Positions 2,230 to 9,869 of a DNA stretch of 42,013 nucleotides are shown here, one piece after another (position 1 is the first letter of the stretch; every line of letters begins with the position of its first letter). The notes below the pieces were generated by a model. That model was not told where the DNA came from and made no database searches. It worked only from the letters and a program-made list of their open reading frames with translations. The position numbers and the translations under genes were made by a program. Source of the DNA: Opitutaceae bacterium (GTDB lineage: Bacteria > Verrucomicrobiota > Verrucomicrobiia > Opitutales > Opitutaceae); contig JAIXQE010000017.1 in NCBI GenBank assembly GCA_027485815.1, positions 1 to 42,013 of the forward strand, in the 5' to 3' direction.

Positions 2230-3450
2230 GTGGCCACCGCCTCCAGCGCCATCTTGCCCTCCCGGATCCTCGTGGTGGACGACGAGCGGCAGATCCACGC
2301 CTCGCTGCGGCTGCGGCTGGGCGGGGCGCACGAACTCGAGTTCGCCTTCGACGCCGCCGGGGGGCTCGAGCGCCTGCGGCAGACCCGGTTCGACCTGTGC
2401 CTCGCGGACCTGCACATGCCGCGGATGGACGGCTTCGCGTTCATCGAGGCGGCGCGGGCGGTGGATCCGGCGCTCGGCTTCGTGGTGTTGAGCGCGTTCG
2501 ATTCGGCGGAGAACCTCCGGCGCACCATTCCCCTGCAGGTCTACGACTTCCTGTCGAAGCCGCTGCCGGGCAAGGCGGACTTCGAGGCACGGATCCCCGA
2601 GTGGATCGAGCGGACCCGCCAGCGGCGCGTGGACCAGGAGCTCGCCCGCTCCGCGGGGGTGGTGGCGGGGGAACGGGAGGCGGCGCGGCTGGAGCGGGAC
2701 GTCGAGCTGGTGGCCTCCGAGACGGCGCGTGACGCCCTGCGGCAGACGGCCGGGCTGCTCACCACGGTGCACGCGCAGCTGCTCGCCTCACAGGCGCTGC
2801 TGGGGACGCCGGGGCGGACGGATCCGCGGGCGGCGCAGTTCACCCGGCGGCTGGAGGAGGCCCGGCGCACGGCGGAGGCCGCGATGGCGGTCACGGAGGC
2901 ATTCTTCGACACCGGCTACGGCAGCCGCGACACGTCGCCGGCCGTGGTGGACGAGGGCATCCGCCACGCGGGCGGGATCGCCCTGCGGATGTGCCGGGGG
3001 GAGGAGGAGGGCAAGGCGGTGGAGTTCACCCCCGGGGCCGCGGGCCTGCCGGTGCGGGGGTTATCGGGCATCGACTTCCTGCTTTTGATGACCCCGGCGC
3101 TGGGCGCGGCCCTCACGGGCGCGCCGCGCCGGACAACGGTGGGGGTGCGAGCGGAGCCGCTGGGCCGGCTCGAGGAGGCCTACCGCGACCCGGCGCTCCG
3201 CAACTTCGTATGGTACAACCGCCGCAACGCCCCGACCGGCCAAGCGGCGGTGCTGATCACCGTGACCGGCGCGGGCCCGGCCCTGACCCCGGCGGCGCTG
3301 GAGGCGTGGCTGCAGGACCGGTACGATCCGCTGGCGACCATCACGGCCCGCGGCCTCGTCGCCGGCGTGCGGCGCTGCCACGGCGTCATCGGCGCGGCGG
3401 TGTCCCCGCAATCCGGCCGCTTCAGCCTCGCGCTGGCGCTGCCCGTGTGA
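2230..3450 (+). CDS. response regulator fused to a degenerate histidine-kinase-like module
   Basis: 406 residues starting at GTG, 9 bases after the kinase stop, so probably co-transcribed. Residues 12-130 are a canonical receiver: acidic pair D17/D18, phospho-acceptor D60 in LADLHMP, S88 and K110 in LSKPL. It is therefore the best phosphate acceptor for the upstream kinase. Residues ~140-406 have no DNA-binding domain. They follow the layout of a DHp plus HATPase core (long helices, then LLLMTPALGAAL where the N-box should be, VTGAGPALT for G1, and a C-terminal ITARGLVAGVRRCHGVIGA stretch for G2/G3). The N-box Asn and most ATP-binding glycines are absent, so catalysis looks unlikely. My inference is a pseudokinase output domain that may bind the upstream kinase or the two downstream regulators. 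The alternative is an unrelated alpha/beta domain. Confidence 0.75.
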   Translation: MATASSAILPSRILVVDDERQIHASLRLRLGGAHELEFAFDAAGGLERLRQTRFDLCLADLHMPRMDGFAFIEAARAVDPALGFVVLSAFDSAENLRRTIPLQVYDFLSKPLPGKADFEARIPEWIERTRQRRVDQELARSAGVVAGEREAARLERDVELVASETARDALRQTAGLLTTVHAQLLASQALLGTPGRTDPRAAQFTRRLEEARRTAEAAMAVTEAFFDTGYGSRDTSPAVVDEGIRHAGGIALRMCRGEEEGKAVEFTPGAAGLPVRGLSGIDFLLLMTPALGAALTGAPRRTTVGVRAEPLGRLEEAYRDPALRNFVWYNRRNAPTGQAAVLITVTGAGPALTPAALEAWLQDRYDPLATITARGLVAGVRRCHGVIGAAVSPQSGRFSLALALPV

Positions 3451-3457
3451 CCCGGCA

Positions 3458-4147
3458 ATGATCCTGCTCGTCGACAGCGCGGAGCGCGAGGGGTCCGTCC
3501 TGGCGGAGCTCTGCGCCGGGCGGGGCTGGGTGACCGGGACCTGCGCGACGGTCGCCGAGGCCCGGCGGCGGATCCCACGGCTGCGGCCGCGCGTGGCCGT
3601 CATCCGACGCACCCTGCGGGACGGCCTCGCCGAGGAGGTGCTCGGGGCGCTGGCGGACGCGCGCTGCCGGCGGCTGGTGCTGGTGCCGGCGGGGACCAGC
3701 GGGGCGGTGGAAGCCCGGCTGGTGGCGCTGGGCGCGGACTGCGTCCTGCGGGAGCCCGTGCGCATCGAGGTGCTGCTGGCGTACCTGGAGCGTTTCCGGC
3801 GCGAGCCGGGAACGGCGCCGCCGCCCCGCCCGGCCCGGCTGGCGTTCGCGGGCGGGCAGCTCGATCCCGCGGACCGAACCCTGCGCCGCGGTGCCCGGGC
3901 GACCACCCTCGCGCCGCGGCAGGTGCAGTTGGCGGAGCTGCTGGCGCGGTCCCCCGGGGAGGTGGTCGCCTACGAGGCCCTCTACGCCGAGATCCTGGGC
4001 CGGCCCTTCCGCGGGGACACCGGCAACCTGCGGGTCCTGCTCGGCAAGCTCTGCGCCGCGGCGGCCCGTGCCGGCGTCGACGCGCGCGCCTGGATCGAGG
4101 TGATCCCGAAATCCGGCTACCGGTTGCGGCGGGCCGCCGGGCGGTAA
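3458..4147 (+). CDS. OmpR-type winged-helix regulator with degenerate receiver domain
   Basis: 229-residue predicted DNA-binding regulator, 7 bases after the preceding gene. Residues 1-112 have the receiver fold pattern (MILLVD, then RVAVIRRTLRDG). The phospho-acceptor position holds R50 instead of Asp, and the conserved Lys-Pro near residue 100 reads E99-P100. Only the first acidic residue (D6) remains. Residues ~128-229 are a winged-helix trans_reg_C domain ending in IEVIPKSGYRLRR, which matches the conserved wing 'GYRL' of OmpR/PhoB proteins. Activity is thus probably not controlled by Asp phosphorylation, but by protein contacts, ligand or abundance (inference). A small inverted repeat GTAAC-N6-GTTAC (4144-4159) spans the stop codon. 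Confidence 0.82.
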   Translation: MILLVDSAEREGSVLAELCAGRGWVTGTCATVAEARRRIPRLRPRVAVIRRTLRDGLAEEVLGALADARCRRLVLVPAGTSGAVEARLVALGADCVLREPVRIEVLLAYLERFRREPGTAPPPRPARLAFAGGQLDPADRTLRRGARATTLAPRQVQLAELLARSPGEVVAYEALYAEILGRPFRGDTGNLRVLLGKLCAAAARAGVDARAWIEVIPKSGYRLRRAAGR

Positions 4148-4204
4148 CGGAAAAGTTACGGCGGACCCGTTCCGGAGCGGGCCGGGGCCGGACACGGTGC
4201 GGCC

Positions 4205-4948
4205 ATGGAAACGCACCCCACCGTCGTGATCCTCAAGGCCGACCAGCTCTACGCCGCCACCCTGCGCGCGCACGTGGACGCCGTGCTGCCGGGGGCGCGG
4301 ATCACGGTGGCGCCGACCGTCGCGGCGGCCCGGACCCTGCTGGAGCGGGCGCCGGTGGACCTGCTGCTGGGCAGCCTGGGGGAGGGCCCCGAGGGGGACG
4401 CGCTCGACCTGCTGGCCCAGTCCACCCGGGCGCCGCGGCGCGCCCGGCGGGTGATGGTGGTGGCGCTGCGCTGCACCTACCGGACCCTCTCGGCCCTGCG
4501 GACCCTGGCGGTCGAGGGGGTTTTCGATGCCGTCACGGAGGAATCGGAAGCGTTCCGGCCGGCGCTGGAGCGGGTGCTCGCGGGGCAGCGTTCGTGGAGC
4601 GCTTCGGTGCAGGGGGAGCTGCGGCAGATCTCCGCGGCGCCGACGGCGCTGTTCCGGCTGCTGACGGACTTCGAGCAGCTGGTCCTGAGCGTGATCGGGG
4701 CGGGCTGCGACGACGACGAGGCGGGGGAACTGCTGCGGCTGAGCCCGGCGACCATTTCCTCGGTGCGGCGGGACCTGCACCGGAAGCTCGGGGTGCAGCA
4801 CCGCGGCGCGCTGATCCGGATGGCGGCGCAGAAGGGATACGTGCGGTTCACGCCGGATGGGGTGGAGCGGCCGGGCTTCGCGCTGTTCGCGGCCGCCTAC
4901 CGGCCGCGACAGCCGCGGCGGGGGAAGGACGAGCCGGTGGCGGCCTGA
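4205..4948 (+). CDS. LuxR/NarL-type regulator with degenerate receiver domain
   Basis: 247-residue predicted transcription factor, 57 bases after the OmpR-type gene. Residues 5-125 look like a receiver with the catalytic residues lost: the acceptor site VDLLLGSL has S57 where Asp is expected, and no conserved Lys is found in GVFDAVTEES. Residues ~153-213 are a LuxR-type helix-turn-helix (LTDFEQLVLSVIGAG...SPATISSVRRDLHRKLGVQHRGAL pattern), close to the NarL/FixJ consensus although the usual EIA is EAG. A basic tail follows. It is the last of four signalling genes in one direction and lies upstream of the moxR-bat operon, a plausible but untested target. The receiver assignment rests on fold pattern, not on catalytic residues. 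Confidence 0.78.
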   Translation: METHPTVVILKADQLYAATLRAHVDAVLPGARITVAPTVAAARTLLERAPVDLLLGSLGEGPEGDALDLLAQSTRAPRRARRVMVVALRCTYRTLSALRTLAVEGVFDAVTEESEAFRPALERVLAGQRSWSASVQGELRQISAAPTALFRLLTDFEQLVLSVIGAGCDDDEAGELLRLSPATISSVRRDLHRKLGVQHRGALIRMAAQKGYVRFTPDGVERPGFALFAAAYRPRQPRRGKDEPVAA

Positions 4949-5032: not shown

Positions 5033-5995
5033 ATGTCGCCCACCGGTCCCGCCTGGTCCCAGAAACTCCGCGCTGAAATCGGCAAGGCCGTCGTCGGCCA
5101 GGACGCCGTCGTCGAACGCCTGCTGGTGGCCCTGCTGGCCAACGGCCACGTGCTGCTCGAGGGGATGCCCGGGCTCGCGAAGACCCTGCTGGTCAAGTCG
5201 CTGGGTACGGCCCTCGGGGTGCAGTTCGAACGGATCCAGTTCACGCCGGACCTGCTGCCGAGCGACGTCGTGGGCACGATGATCTTCCAGCCAAAGACGG
5301 GGGAGTTCACCGCCCACCGCGGTCCGATCTTCGCCAACCTGGTGTTGGCGGATGAGATCAACCGGGCGCCGGCCAAGGTGCAGAGCGCCCTGCTCGAGGG
5401 GATGCAGGAGCGGCAGGTGACCCTCGGCGGTCAGACGCACGCGCTGCCCCGGCCGTTCTTCGTGATGGCGACCCAGAATCCGGTGGAGCAGGAGGGCACC
5501 TATCCGCTGCCGGAGGCGCAGACCGACCGCTTCCTGTTCAAGCTGCTCGTCGACTACCCGAGCGCGGCCGAGGAGGCGGCGATGCTGCAGCGCTGGGGCC
5601 AGGTCACCCGCCAGCCGGCGCTCGCGGCCGTGTCCGGCGGGGAGGAGCTGCTCGCGCTGCGGGCGGAGGTCGACGCGATCCATCTCTCGCCGGCGGTGCA
5701 GGGCTACATCCTCGCGCTGGTCCGCGGCACGCGGGCACTGGCGGACGCGGCGGCGCCGCGGCGGCACCTGTCGTTCGGGGCGTCGCCCCGGGCCTCGCTC
5801 GCCCTTTACCAGGCGGGGCGCGCCCTGGCGTGGCTGCGGGGCGAGGACCACGTTTCCCCCGGCCTGATCCAGGAGCTGGCGCCGGACATCCTGCGGCACC
5901 GGATCGGCCTGACCTACGAGGCCGAGGCCGAGGAGATCACGGCGGACAAGCTGGTGGCGGAGGTGATCACCCGCACCGCGGTGCCGGCCGTCTAG
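5033..5995 (+). CDS. moxR: MoxR family AAA+ ATPase
   Basis: 320-residue cytoplasmic AAA+ ATPase of the MoxR type, a chaperone-like family usually encoded with vWA-domain proteins. Walker A is GMPGLAKT (residues 44-51), Walker B LVLADE (103-108), and the sensor region MATQNPVEQEGTYPLPEAQTDRF is typical. The C-terminal lid contains the family's SFGASPRASLAL pattern. Length is normal. The start at 5033 follows a gap of 84 bases from the regulator gene, which includes a GC-rich palindrome (4949-4960); a promoter may lie here but I cannot identify one. It is the first gene of a five-gene run continuing into DUF58 and Bat genes. Confidence 0.95.
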   Translation: MSPTGPAWSQKLRAEIGKAVVGQDAVVERLLVALLANGHVLLEGMPGLAKTLLVKSLGTALGVQFERIQFTPDLLPSDVVGTMIFQPKTGEFTAHRGPIFANLVLADEINRAPAKVQSALLEGMQERQVTLGGQTHALPRPFFVMATQNPVEQEGTYPLPEAQTDRFLFKLLVDYPSAAEEAAMLQRWGQVTRQPALAAVSGGEELLALRAEVDAIHLSPAVQGYILALVRGTRALADAAAPRRHLSFGASPRASLALYQAGRALAWLRGEDHVSPGLIQELAPDILRHRIGLTYEAEAEEITADKLVAEVITRTAVPAV

Positions 5996-6005
5996 GCGCC
6001 CGCCG

Positions 6006-6938
6006 ATGCCCGCCGCCGCCCCCGTCCTCCCGCCCGCCCCGGTGGCCGCCGCGCCGCTGGCGGCATTGCGCCGGCTGGAATGGCGGGTGCGCCACGCGGT
6101 GGAGGCGATGCTGAGCGGCGAGTACCGTTCCGCGTTCCGGGGGCGGGGAATGGAGTTCGACCAGGTGGTGAAGTACGAGTTCGGGGACGACGTGCGCGAC
6201 ATCGACTGGAACGTGACCGCGCGCCTCGGGGAGCCGTACCGCAAGAAGTTCGTCGAGGAGCGGGAGGTCACCGTCCTGCTGGTGCTGGAGGATTCCCCCT
6301 CGCTCGGCTTCGGGTCCGGGGCGCAGTCGCGGCGGGAGGCGCTGCTGGAGTTGGCGGGCCTGGTGATGCTGCTCGGGGCGGTGAACCGGGACCGGGTGGG
6401 TTTCGTGCATGCGGCGCCCGGGGGCAACGTCGTGCGGGAGCCCGTGCGGGGCCGCGGCCGGATCCTGCAGCTGGCGGCTTCCCTGCTCGCGGCGCCGGCG
6501 CCCGCGCCCGATGCCGCGGCGCCCACGCCGCCGTGGCGCTTCCTCGCCCGGGCGGCGCCGAAGCACAGCATCCTCATCTGGCTGGGAGACTTTCCGCCGG
6601 TCGCGCGGTCGGGCGGCGATGATCCGCGGCCCGAGGGCTGGAGCGTCCTGCAGCGGCGCTACCAGACGATGGGGTTCCGGGTGGACGACCCGTGGGACCG
6701 CGCGCTGCCGGCGGGCGAGCCGTTCGCGGCTTACGACGCGGTGGCCGGGCGGCTGGTGACGATCGACGGGGGCGCGGCGGAGCAGGCCGCCCACGCCGCG
6801 TGGGTGACCGCGCGGGAGCGCGCCTGGCAGACCCTGTTCCCCGACCCGCTCACGCGCCTGGCAGTCGGCACCGGCGAGAACCGGCTCGACGCGCTGGTGC
6901 GCTTCTTCCACGCCCGGATGAACCCGGGGCGGCGCTGA
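6006..6938 (+). CDS. DUF58 domain protein of the MoxR/Bat operon
   Basis: 310 residues, starting 10 bases after moxR. It carries the DUF58 hallmark YEFGDDVRDIDWNVTAR (residues 57-73), preceded by the GRGMEFDQV stretch, then a vWA-like fold beginning VTVLLVLEDSPSLGFG where a metal-dependent adhesion site would sit. No signal peptide or clear membrane helix is seen, so it is probably cytoplasmic. In MoxR operons the DUF58 protein is generally thought to partner with the ATPase; its exact activity is unknown. A Pro/Ala-rich N-terminus of ~20 residues precedes the conserved region. Confidence 0.92.
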   Translation: MPAAAPVLPPAPVAAAPLAALRRLEWRVRHAVEAMLSGEYRSAFRGRGMEFDQVVKYEFGDDVRDIDWNVTARLGEPYRKKFVEEREVTVLLVLEDSPSLGFGSGAQSRREALLELAGLVMLLGAVNRDRVGFVHAAPGGNVVREPVRGRGRILQLAASLLAAPAPAPDAAAPTPPWRFLARAAPKHSILIWLGDFPPVARSGGDDPRPEGWSVLQRRYQTMGFRVDDPWDRALPAGEPFAAYDAVAGRLVTIDGGAAEQAAHAAWVTARERAWQTLFPDPLTRLAVGTGENRLDALVRFFHARMNPGRR

Positions 6939-6942
6939 CCCG

Positions 6943-7962
6943 ATGGGCCGCCTCACCCTCCAGGACCCGCTCTGGCTGCTGGCGCTGCTCGCGCTACCGC
7001 TGGTCGCCTGGCTGCGCGGCCGCCGGCGCGTGCCCGTGCTCCTTGTGCCCTTCGCGGCGGCATGGCACCGGCCCTCCCTCGCCGCCCCCGGGCGGTGGCC
7101 CGCGGTGCTGATGTTCGCCGGCCTGGCGCTGCTGGTCGTCGCCCTCGCCCGGCCCCAGCGCGTGGAGGACCGCCGCGAGGTCCGCTCGGAGGGCTACGAC
7201 ATCGTCCTCGCGATCGACCTCTCGACGTCGATGCGGGCCGAGGACTTCGAGAAGGACGGCGAGCGCATCAACCGCCTGCAGGCGATCAAGCCGGTCATCC
7301 AGGCCTTCATCGAGCGGCGGCCGACCGACCGCATCGGGATCGTCCTCTTTTCCGGCCGCGCCTACACCATGGCGCCGCTCACCTTCGACCACGACTGGCT
7401 CGCGCGGCAGCTCGCCCGCGTCCGCATCGGAATGATCGAGGACGGCACCGCGATCGGGGACGGCCTCGGCGTGGCCCTCACCCGGCTGGAGCAGGCGCGC
7501 CGGGACGCCGCGGGCCGGCGCATCGGGGCCTTCGTGGTCCTGATGACGGACGGGGCCAACAACCGCGGCGCGCTGCAGCCGCTCCAGGCCGCCGAGATCG
7601 CCAAGTCGCGCGGGGTGCCGATCTACACCATCGGTTCCGGCAAGGAGGGCTACGTGCCCGTGCCGATCTACGATGATCAGGGCCGCAAGGTGACGTACCG
7701 CCGGATGCTGTCGGACCTCGACGAGGGCACCCTGCGCGAGATTGCGAACCAGACGGGCGGCAAGTTCTTCCGGGCGGCGGACACGGGCACGATCGAGGCG
7801 GCGTTCCGCGCCATCGACCGCGCGCAGAAGATCGAATTCCAGGCCAAGAGCTACCTGGTGACGACGGAACTCTTCGCGTGGGCCGCGTGGCCGGGTCTCG
7901 GCCTGCTCGCGCTCGGGGCCGCGGCGGCGCGCCCGCCCTTCCGCCGGGAGGTGGCCGCATGA
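6943..7962 (+). CDS. batA: BatA-type von Willebrand factor A membrane protein
   Basis: 339 residues, 4 bases after the DUF58 gene. It has the standard BatA layout: two N-terminal membrane helices (about residues 9-24 and 52-70), a vWA domain with an intact metal-site motif DLSTSM (92-97) and a second conserved segment MTDGANNRG, and a C-terminal membrane helix (LFAWAAWPGLGLLALGA). Bat proteins were named for aerotolerance in Bacteroides and are linked to envelope stress resistance. The last bases overlap the next start codon in an ATGA arrangement (7959-7962), which indicates translational coupling. Confidence 0.93.
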   Translation: MGRLTLQDPLWLLALLALPLVAWLRGRRRVPVLLVPFAAAWHRPSLAAPGRWPAVLMFAGLALLVVALARPQRVEDRREVRSEGYDIVLAIDLSTSMRAEDFEKDGERINRLQAIKPVIQAFIERRPTDRIGIVLFSGRAYTMAPLTFDHDWLARQLARVRIGMIEDGTAIGDGLGVALTRLEQARRDAAGRRIGAFVVLMTDGANNRGALQPLQAAEIAKSRGVPIYTIGSGKEGYVPVPIYDDQGRKVTYRRMLSDLDEGTLREIANQTGGKFFRAADTGTIEAAFRAIDRAQKIEFQAKSYLVTTELFAWAAWPGLGLLALGAAAARPPFRREVAA

Positions 7963-9869
7963 CCTTCGCCCTCCCCCACCTCCTCTGGCTGCTGGCCCTT
8001 CCAGTGCTCCTGCTGGTCCTGGACCGGCGCGCGCGCGCGGCCGCGGGCGTTGCCCGACCGCGCATCCTTCGGGCGGAGGCGGGCGCCGGCGGGCTGCGCC
8101 TCGCGCCAGCGGACGCCCCGCCGCCGACCGGACGCCGCCCGCGCTGGTGGCTCGCCGCGGGGCTCACCCTCGCCGTCCTCGCCCTCGCCCGCCCGCAATG
8201 GGGCAAGCTCGAGGAGCCCGTCTTCGACCAGGCCCGCGAGATCCTCCTCGCGGTCGACCTCTCCCGCTCGATGCTCACCCCCGACGTGAAGCCCTCGCGG
8301 CTCGAGCGCGCCAAGCTGCTGATCCAGTCCCTCCTGGAGAAGCTGGCGGGCGAACGGGTGGGTCTGGTCGTGTTCGCGGGGACCGCGTTTTTGCAGGCCC
8401 CGCTCAGCGCGGATTACGAGATTCTGCGGGAGTTCCTGCCCGCGCTGAGCCCGGACTTCCTGCCCCAGGGCGGGAGCAACTACGGAGCGCTCCTCGAAGC
8501 CTCGCTGCAGGCCTTCGGCGCCACCGCCGCGGCCGACCGCTTCCTGGTAGTGCTCAGCGATGGCGAGGCGACGGATGAACGCTGGAAGGAACGCGCCGCC
8601 GAACTGGCGAAGAAGGAAATCCGCGTGCTTTCCCTCGGCATCGGCACCGCGGCCGGCGGGATGATCCCCGACGGCGCGGGCGGGCTGGTGAAGGATGAGC
8701 GCGGCGCCGTCGTGATGTCCCGCCTCGAACCCTCCACCCTGCAGGAACTGGCGCGCGTCACCGGTGGGACCTACCGGGACGCGAGCGCGTGGCTGGACCT
8801 CTCGGCGCTGCTGCGGGAGACGGTGGAGCGCGGCCAGCGCGGACGCTTCGCGGAGCGCAAGACCGTGCGCCAGGTCGAGCGTTACCAGTGGCCCCTCGCG
8901 CTCGCGTTGTGGTGCCTGCTGGTCAGCTTCTTCACCGAGTTCCCCGTGCGCCCGAAACCCCGCGCCCTCCCCCTGCGGCCCCCGGCCCCGCGGTCCGCCG
9001 CGACCCTCGCGCTCCTGCTCGCCCTGCTCGCCGCCCCGGCGCCCGCCCCGGCCGCGGCCCGCCGCGAGGATCCGGCCCCGCCCCCGCCGACGCCCGCCGC
9101 CTCCCCCGCCGCCCCCAGCCCGGTCCCCGCTCCCGCGGCGGAGGCGCCGCCGCCCTCGCCACTGTCCCGGATGGTCGGCCGCCTCGCGGCCACGACGGAG
9201 CACCGCGCGCGCGACTGGGCGGAACTCGGGCGCGAAACCGTCACCTGGGGCTCGCAACTCAAGTCCGGCGGCCAACCGGTGCCGGAAGGCCCGGTGCGGG
9301 ACGCGCTCGAGGCGGTCGCCCTCGGGCAGAAGCTGGAGGCCGGGGCCGCGGACTGGTCCAAACTGCGCGCGGAGCTCGAGGAGTTGTTGCAGACGCCGCC
9401 GGAGAAGCCGCCGGAGGAGAAGCCCGACCAGCCCCCGCCGCAGCAGGACAAGGACAAGAACCAGAAGCAGGATTCCCCCCAGCAGCAACCGCAGTCCTCC
9501 CCCGGCGAGCCGCGGCCGGGCGAACCGCCGCCCGAGGGCGAGCAGGGGCAGCCGCCGCCGGACCAGCAGTCGAAGCAGGAGAAGACGCCGGGCCAGGACT
9601 CGCCGCCCGGCGAGGCGCCGCCGGACCAGGATCCCGCGCTCGGGGATCTCAACCGCGAGGAGCCGCCTTCCCCGCCCCCCGAAGCCACCCAGAAGGTCGG
9701 CGGCCAACCGGAGCGCAAGGAGGGCCCGCCCCCCGAGGCCGCCAACCCGGCCCTCGCCCTGCCGCTGCAGAAGCTCGACCAGCTCCGGGCGCAGGATTCC
9801 CCGGCGCAGCTGTTTCAATTGATGGAAGGCGAACGCAAACCCGCCCGGAAGACGGGCAAGGACTGGTGA
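7959..9869 (+). CDS. batB: BatB-type vWA membrane protein with long Pro/Gln-rich BatC-like tail
   Basis: 636 residues. I chose ATG 7959, which overlaps the batA stop (ATGA) and places the first membrane helix at the N-terminus; an upstream in-frame start at 7878 would lie inside batA. Two N-terminal helices, a vWA domain with DLSRSM (100-105) and VVLSDGEATDE, and a helix at ~311-328 make a complete BatB. A second hydrophobic segment with signal-peptide character follows (~345-369), then a 267-residue tail: Pro/Ala-rich linker, a helical part, a Pro/Gln/Lys-rich low-complexity stretch (~480-600) and a conserved-looking end (LPLQKLDQLRAQDSPAQLFQLM). The tail's position and internal signal-like segment suggest a fused BatC-type protein, though I see no convincing TPR in it. 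Confidence 0.9.
   Translation: MTFALPHLLWLLALPVLLLVLDRRARAAAGVARPRILRAEAGAGGLRLAPADAPPPTGRRPRWWLAAGLTLAVLALARPQWGKLEEPVFDQAREILLAVDLSRSMLTPDVKPSRLERAKLLIQSLLEKLAGERVGLVVFAGTAFLQAPLSADYEILREFLPALSPDFLPQGGSNYGALLEASLQAFGATAAADRFLVVLSDGEATDERWKERAAELAKKEIRVLSLGIGTAAGGMIPDGAGGLVKDERGAVVMSRLEPSTLQELARVTGGTYRDASAWLDLSALLRETVERGQRGRFAERKTVRQVERYQWPLALALWCLLVSFFTEFPVRPKPRALPLRPPAPRSAATLALLLALLAAPAPAPAAARREDPAPPPPTPAASPAAPSPVPAPAAEAPPPSPLSRMVGRLAATTEHRARDWAELGRETVTWGSQLKSGGQPVPEGPVRDALEAVALGQKLEAGAADWSKLRAELEELLQTPPEKPPEEKPDQPPPQQDKDKNQKQDSPQQQPQSSPGEPRPGEPPPEGEQGQPPPDQQSKQEKTPGQDSPPGEAPPDQDPALGDLNREEPPSPPPEATQKVGGQPERKEGPPPEAANPALALPLQKLDQLRAQDSPAQLFQLMEGERKPARKTGKDW

Follow-up and report, generated by a model that had tools for sequence, protein, structure and literature searches.

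Four consecutive signalling genes of an Opitutaceae bacterium form a conserved set in which the signal seems to pass by touch and by gene control, without phosphate transfer below the second protein. The genes follow one another in the same orientation, separated by 9, 7 and 57 bases, in the contig analysed here (the window: 42,013 nucleotides, contig C189 of a genome of 4.08 Mb), and encode a sensor kinase, a receiver-pseudokinase that is referred to as RR2 (encoded at 2230-3450), an OmpR-like factor and a LuxR-like factor. Whether this conserved module works in series, in that order, we consider an evenly balanced question. The new element is a direct repeat located before LuxR-like genes, pseudo-receivers and receiver-controlled kinases being already known. 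The features concerned are the following:

42-59, no strand assigned: near-perfect palindrome TACCCTGAATTCGGGGTA, candidate second operator at the operon head (genome scan)
178-2220, + strand: membrane sensor histidine kinase, 680 aa, catalytic residues intact (His464, N-, G1- and G2-box) (ORF, HATPase_c, 12 orthologs)
2230-3450, + strand: RR2, complete receiver, long helix and DHp/CA-like pseudokinase, 406 aa (PF00072, 23 orthologs, AlphaFold, Foldseek)
3458-4147, + strand: OmpR-type transcription factor with pseudo-receiver (Asp to Arg50, Lys to Glu99), 229 aa (ORF, profile alignment)
3605-3607, + strand: Arg50 codon cga, phospho-acceptor position (alignment, orthologs)
4145-4161, + strand: candidate direct-repeat operator TAACGG-AAAAG-TTACGG (ortholog upstream scan)
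4205-4948, + strand: LuxR/NarL-type transcription factor with pseudo-receiver (Asp to Ser57, no Lys), 247 aa (ORF, profile alignment)
4373-4375, + strand: Ser57 codon agc, phospho-acceptor position (alignment, orthologs)

The four proteins and their phosphorylation sites

A preliminary description of this DNA had placed a kinase at the head of four signalling genes with a single normal Asp acceptor among them, and this picture stands. The kinase matches HATPase_c at 90.8 bits, and its phosphorylatable His464 and the N-, G1- and G2-box residues (N572, N576, D605, G607, G609, G636, G638) are invariant in 12 orthologs; the one normal acceptor is Asp60 of RR2, invariant in 23 orthologs. The open reading frames at 3458-4147 and 4205-4948 are likewise present and conserved. 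Assignment of the kinase as PrsK of the PrsK/PrsR system was rejected, its score against the PrsK model being 90.8 bits and the cut-off 300.

Within the kinase gene, GC3 rises abruptly near position 950, from 0.49 in the sensor half (178-950) to 0.95 in the catalytic half. Sensor-half GC3 lies between 0.44 and 0.62 in all 12 full-length orthologs (G004 has 0.45 in both halves) and between 0.40 and 0.60 in eight of nine paralogous kinases with the same sensor type, the ninth having 0.80. Identity between the kinases of the window and of G009 is 34% in the sensor half and 88% in the catalytic half. Exchange of the sensor, or a codon constraint, is a possible source of these differences.

The receiver of RR2, which matches PF00072 at 57.2 bits, retains Asp17, Asp18, Asp60 and Lys110 in 23/23 orthologs and in all three held-out loci (L099, L102 and L115, taken from the RR2 scan described below and lying outside the genomes searched). 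Past the receiver, the AlphaFold model (pLDDT 80.6, pTM 0.55) displays a helical hairpin, made of one long helix and a second one, together with an alpha/beta domain. The best PDB match of this model in Foldseek is LvrB of Leptospira (E 2.7e-15, about 415 columns, ranks 1-6), and matches to kinase cores include DivL (4q20, E 7.5e-8) and 4gcz (E 8.9e-8), which we take to be YF1. The predicted structure has the Rec-helix-DHp-CA layout of the LvrB class, with moderate confidence for the DHp and CA portions.

The residues on which catalysis by such a core depends are not conserved in RR2. No His is invariant among the 23 orthologs: the best hairpin column, 181, is His in 16/23, and His246, found in 19/23, is positioned after the hairpin. 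Arg167, by contrast, is invariant and falls, when placed by eye, at the DHp His position; E159 and S163 are also among the invariant residues of the core. A weak profile alignment places P289 and A293 at the N-box positions and G347 at the G1 Asp, columns that contain no Asn or Asp in the family except for one Asn at 347, and N330 is the sole conserved Asn after the receiver. The preliminary reading of RR2 as a receiver-pseudokinase therefore holds, with an intact receiver, no invariant His and no ATP-site Asn: on the evidence of the model, RR2 is a receiver joined to a predicted pseudokinase that has neither a phospho-His nor ATP-site motifs. This reading is structure-based because sequence profiles align the core weakly or not at all. 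Against the kinase core they yield 49 weak columns (E 0.084), against a neighbouring canonical receiver-kinase they align the receiver and not the core, and VIA-align returns mainly receiver matches. No DNA-binding domain was detected in RR2. Since the core is strongly conserved although catalytically empty, it probably binds something. The RR2 gene is under purifying selection (dN/dS 0.09-0.15 against four near relatives).

Six loci with the module (L078, L079, L082, L090, L092 and L093) also encode a canonical receiver-kinase with an intact VELVHDLNNPL motif; RR2 may be a degenerate relative of this receiver-kinase. Receiver-kinase arrays were inspected at L078:14399-18001, L092:14134-18001 and L167:5260-11364, where the companions are a ketoacyl-synthase-like gene and a sensor kinase whose membrane part is of the same type; the L167 array, from a genome without the module, also contains a 592-aa GAF protein.

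In the two transcription factors, only the DNA-binding domains pass Pfam cut-offs, and the receiver model finds no match in either at E <= 1. The winged helix of the OmpR-like factor (Trans_reg_C) scores 31.9 bits against a cut-off of 26.2, and the full-length model matches MtrA, PrrA, VanR and KdpE. Profile alignment to solved regulators places Arg50 on the phospho-Asp of KdpE and residue 99 on its conserved Lys. In receivers, these two residues sit at the ends of strands 3 and 5, and in the AlphaFold model of the OmpR-like factor (pLDDT 90.6) strand 3 ends at residue 50 and strand 5 at residue 99. Residue 50 is Arg and residue 99 is Glu or Asp in all 26 orthologs (23 plus the three held-out loci); residue 98 is Arg in 23/23, and an Arg-Asp-Pro motif is present in the three held-out loci. 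Of the acidic pair, Asp survives at the first position in 5/23 and at the second in none. The acceptor Asp, Lys and acidic pair that mark phosphorylatable receivers of OmpR/PhoB regulators are consequently not those of this protein, whereas its model and fold matches are those of a pseudo-receiver, that is, a receiver fold without the acceptor Asp. Judged from its sequence, the pocket looks charge-swapped, with Arg50 facing Glu/Asp99, and we would guess that this swap locks the pseudo-receiver fold.

A similar comparison can be made for the LuxR-like factor, for which the pseudo-receiver assignment comes from profile alignment to RcsB alone. Residue 57, which falls on the RcsB phospho-Asp, is Gly in 16/21 orthologs and Ser in 5/21, Ser occurring in the five closest genomes alone; with one held-out locus (Gly57), Ser or Gly is found in 22/22. 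There is no Lys at positions 109-111 in any of the 21. Lys11 (20/21) and Asp108 (21/21) give this pocket, too, an apparently charge-swapped character, with the same conjectured effect on the fold. The acceptor substitutions and loss of Lys first noted in the window are thereby borne out in both factors, and none of the orthologs examined, of either factor, has the acceptor Asp. With dN/dS of 0.14-0.26 for the OmpR-like and 0.09-0.12 for the LuxR-like gene against four near relatives, the two factors are under purifying selection and so not decayed.

Co-occurrence and gene order of the set

The distribution of the four genes was followed in 95 genomes (the source genome, 26 of the same genus, 34 of the family and 34 of the order), with up to 15-30 first-look candidates scored per genome. 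As raw counts that ignore kinship, RR2 orthologs are present in 23/95 genomes (E <= 1.7e-190; next match 3.6e-23). OmpR-like orthologs occur in the same 23 (E <= 2.2e-43; next 7e-10), as does the kinase, at E <= 1.1e-57 in 22 and as two pieces beside RR2 in G005. Outside these genomes, the best kinase match is in G083 (E 3.8e-48 over 264 residues). Because a match to the sensor half alone (E 2.7e-29) lies at a contig end in G014, a genome without RR2 or OmpR-like ortholog, the kinase may not be strictly tied to the set. Five genomes from the genus (G001, G014, G017, G019 and G020) yielded no ortholog of either RR2 or the OmpR-like factor.

The LuxR-like factor is present in 21 of the 23 module genomes (E <= 1.6e-55; next 6.7e-38); no ortholog was found in G015 and G040, or in two of the three held-out genomes. 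The four genes are contiguous in 15/23 genomes (some cut by contig ends), with the kinase broken in G005 and missing its sensor part in G007. Elsewhere, single pieces are displaced or lost: kinase, RR2 and OmpR-like genes occur without the LuxR-like gene in G015 and G040; the last three genes stand together, apart from the kinase, in G012, G026 and G018 (at less than 4 kb in G018); and RR2 and OmpR-like genes are adjacent, with the other two elsewhere, in G002 and G022. In G003, whose contamination is 6%, kinase, RR2 and LuxR-like genes are together and the OmpR-like gene is on another contig; its sequence groups apart from the RR2 and LuxR-like sequences of that genome. Gene trees of the three families agree in the better supported groups and contain many weak forks. 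The constancy of RR2, OmpR-like factor and kinase, even where unlinked, confirms that the set is conserved; as to whether its members occur independently, these three share the same 23 genomes, while the LuxR-like factor is separable.

A scan of contigs with the RR2 alignment, using two peptide patterns, recovered 27 loci, of which 24 are RR2 relatives and three are receiver-only matches in other bacteria. All 24 derive from metagenome-assembled genomes (MAGs) titled Opitutaceae, Opitutae, Opitutia, Opitutus, Verrucomicrobia, Verrucomicrobiota or Verrucomicrobiia and, once, Pedosphaera. The module has so far been seen in Verrucomicrobiota MAGs alone, mostly titled Opitutaceae or Opitutae, in a group of bacteria few of which are cultured.

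Directly downstream of the LuxR-like gene in the window, at 5033-9869, are four MoxR/DUF58/BatA/BatB-like genes, which also follow it in the four nearest relatives. The first two we take to be MoxR- and DUF58-like; the last two have the BatA and BatB models as their best matches, at scores under the cut-off. In six further genomes (G006, G008, G012, G022, G023 and G026) the distance between the LuxR-like gene and a MoxR homolog is 1.4-7.3 kb.

The direct repeat upstream of LuxR-like genes

Upstream of all 21 LuxR-like genes is a direct repeat with the consensus TTACGG-N5-TTACGG and a period of 11, matching at 14-17 of 17 positions and residing 42-110 nt before the assigned start codons. An invariant T, often in a CTTGG context, follows 25 nt past the first base of the repeat. 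Among 4,200 shuffled upstream regions the best score was 13/17, and six distant LuxR-like genes outside the 21 (in G017, G020, G029 and G051, and two in G032), from genomes without the OmpR-like factor, reach 9-10. The copy in the window starts at the stop codon of the OmpR-like gene, 43 nt before the LuxR-like start codon; the window contains no other match, with 0.05 expected, and the genome no other strict one. Where the OmpR-like gene is not adjacent (G002, G022 and G003), the repeat travels with the LuxR-like gene.

The strict pattern has 27 matches in the 95 genomes, 16 of them upstream of LuxR-like genes, versus 21 for a reversed control, and 19 versus 1 in the 23 module genomes. It misses five of the 21 LuxR-like sites (G002, G004, G005, G008 and G022), which were recovered by position-by-position scanning.

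The held-out loci extend this pattern to other neighbours. In L099 the repeat (16/17) stands before the LuxR-like gene. In L115 it is perfect (17/17) and lies 170 bases after the OmpR-like gene, and in L102 it matches at 14/17 positions, 2.2 kb after the OmpR-like gene and beyond a gene on the opposite strand; in both, it precedes an HlyD-family gene that is followed by a gene for a peptidase-type (peptide cleavage/export) ABC exporter (L115:3313-9172 and L102:12186-16623). A second 14/17 site follows the exporter gene in L102. Shuffling these regions (30 times each) gave at most one site at 14/17, in L115, and none at 16. The best LuxR-like matches in the corresponding genomes have E-values of 8.9e-4 (L115, G096) and 1.5e-8 (L102, G095). 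The LuxR-like factor is accordingly disfavoured as the binder of the repeat, although completeness is not stated for these two MAGs and absence there is not proof. Since the repeat lies downstream of the OmpR-like gene in genomes where no LuxR-like ortholog was found, the OmpR-like factor is favoured instead, and we think it likely, from sequence comparison, that the repeat is its binding site. Tandem repeats about 11 bp apart are the expected targets of OmpR/PhoB-type factors, and one is present in the upstream region of the presumed target, the LuxR-like gene; the core of the ArcA box is likewise an 11-bp spaced direct repeat, with spacing identical to that of PhoB boxes (PMC3798270). The OmpR-like factor thus probably controls the LuxR-like gene through this putative operator, in a series cascade.

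A larger regulon was considered and rejected for the source genome, where three other sites at <=3 mismatches compare with one in the reversed control. One of these has 2 mismatches, as does the window site, but is altered at a column invariant in 21/21; beyond the one clear site, no regulon is visible in that genome. The exporter was similarly discarded as a fixed target: an HlyD homolog in G040 has no repeat nearby (best 11/17), and HlyD homologs of five genomes without the OmpR-like factor score at best 10-12 of 17. No site at <=2 mismatches was found in G015, which has the OmpR-like factor.

In G040, where the OmpR-like factor is present and no LuxR-like ortholog was found, a repeat-like site with one mismatch (L151:4784, G040:C31:22783) lies some 300-400 bp upstream of a gene that we take, from its sequence, to be dnaA-like; this could be chance. 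A repeat-like TAACGGAAAAATAACGG at L154:14395 and L155:13840, at least some 220 bp upstream of similar small membrane-protein genes, belongs to G017 and G020, which do not have the module.

At the head of the operon, 118 nt upstream of the kinase gene, is the palindrome at 42-59, the single site in the genome at <=3 mismatches to TACCCTGAATTCAGGGTA. It is perfect in G010 and has a symmetrically changed core, AAATTT, in G009 and G007. Its presumed resemblance to NarL-type TACCC/GGGTA sites makes the LuxR-like factor a candidate binder. No motif common to the genus upstream of the kinase rose above shuffles, the palindrome alone being shared, in four close genomes. Promoter and terminator scans gave nothing useful.

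Proposed routes of signal transfer and known relatives

In the proposed series, the kinase would autophosphorylate at His464 and phosphorylate Asp60 of RR2, as the intact residues and gene linkage suggest; both residues are invariant, as in a canonical kinase and receiver pair. Phosphorylation might then reshape the RR2 receiver dimer and, through the long helix, the pseudokinase core, a movement modelled on that of LvrB. Given its residue losses, the core would be unable to pass the phosphate on, and could instead offer a docking surface on which the OmpR-like pseudo-receiver is retained or set free by contact. The OmpR-like factor would bind the TTACGG-N5-TTACGG site observed before the LuxR-like gene and control that gene, and the LuxR-like factor, itself not phosphorylatable, would regulate targets of its own. 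Conservation of the set, the invariant acceptor losses, the fold matches to LvrB and DivL and the repeat that accompanies the LuxR-like gene favour this model. Against it, the LuxR-like factor is dispensable, the predicted pseudokinase is read from a modelled structure and Foldseek, G003 keeps the repeat though its OmpR-like gene is on another contig and groups elsewhere, the kinase is perhaps not strictly tied to the set (G014), and no regulon extends beyond one clear site. A further-reaching version, which is possible rather than probable, is that the lower half of a phosphorelay has been replaced by dead domains: RR2 would turn phosphate into a contact signal for the charge-swapped OmpR-like factor, which would drive a plug-in output promoter, placed before the LuxR-like gene in most genomes and before the HlyD/peptidase-ABC exporter in two.

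The main rival, which we regard as rather unlikely, is that the pseudo-receiver factors are constitutively active and controlled by dose, with kinase and RR2 not touching them and RR2 acting elsewhere. It agrees with a general model for pseudo-receivers in two-component operons (PMC12632262), and control of the LuxR-like gene through the operator needs no contact step; it fits less well with a catalytically empty but conserved RR2 core that probably binds something, and with the presence of OmpR-like factor and kinase beside RR2 in 23/23 genomes. The operator also bears on the preliminary proposal that the two factors read one signal in parallel, which is probably not so. Independent docking of both factors on RR2 would be compatible with two dead receivers and with the order kinase-RR2-OmpR-LuxR in 15/23 genomes, but is an unlikely arrangement where the LuxR-like factor was not found in 2/23 and in 2/3 held-out genomes and has an upstream repeat that fits an OmpR-type factor. 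The accompanying statement that protein contact must carry the signal to DNA went further than the data and is not supported in that form.

Conceivably, each pseudo-receiver responds on its own to a small molecule or to some other modification, a mode put forward for certain receivers without the aspartate; other modifications of the acceptor are discussed in PMC4395418, and the charge-swapped-looking pockets could bind a ligand or lock the fold. This we hold to be quite unlikely, as it leaves the constant co-occurrence of the OmpR-like factor with a live kinase and RR2 unexplained. Ordinary decay into regulators without function, to which the loss of catalytic residues might point, is highly improbable, being contradicted by dN/dS of 0.09-0.26, invariant substituted residues, conserved DNA-binding helices and the upstream repeat.

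Several of its parts have relatives among known systems. RR2 shares with the Rec-HK proteins LvrB of Leptospira and PhcR of Ralstonia the order receiver, long helix, DHp and CA, and a position downstream of a distinct sensor kinase. The His161 of LvrB is active and LvrC is its phosphorylation target, and phosphorylation of the LvrB receiver is reported to drive coiled-coil formation and free the catalytic domain (PMC13269768). In RR2, by contrast, neither an invariant His nor an ATP-site Asn or Asp is present, and the proteins presumed to be its partners are without an acceptor Asp. A histidine-kinase core that binds a regulator at a docking interface without kinase or phosphatase activity is described for DivL of Caulobacter (PMC4211667); as presented there, DivL has PAS domains and reads a phosphorylated regulator, whereas the input of RR2 is a receiver and its presumed partners are unphosphorylatable.

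Like the ALR/PsR regulators, the OmpR-like and LuxR-like factors have lost three receiver residues: the acceptor Asp, the conserved Lys and the second member of the acidic pair. Arg at the acceptor position is rare, being reported for 63 ALR sequences, with basic residues together making up 4% of substitutions (PMC4395418). In the OmpR-like factor Arg is invariant and has an acidic partner at the Lys position, and a pair of pseudo-receiver factors apparently acts in series. The operon of the CmrRST system of Clostridioides difficile similarly brings together a single live kinase, a single normal receiver and a pseudo-receiver factor (PMC12548384, PMC12632262). In those accounts the normal receiver is on a DNA-binding OmpR-type factor, whereas here it is on the pseudokinase RR2, and the module here has two pseudo-receiver factors, from two families. 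The suggestion of an undescribed relay architecture is thus sustained in part: a pseudo-receiver behind a live kinase is known, and the new element is the repeat, with the probable series cascade that it suggests. No description of the module was found in titles and abstract openings of the open-access literature on pseudo-receivers and on Opitutaceae/Verrucomicrobiota signalling.

A 2025 review describes as a mystery how bacterial pseudo-receivers and pseudo-kinases switch (PMC12632262). With one live kinase, one live receiver and two dead ones of different families, the module is a compact natural test of pseudo-receiver switching; its dedicated DNA site could serve as a readout, and variants with individual pieces moved or lost exist in nature.
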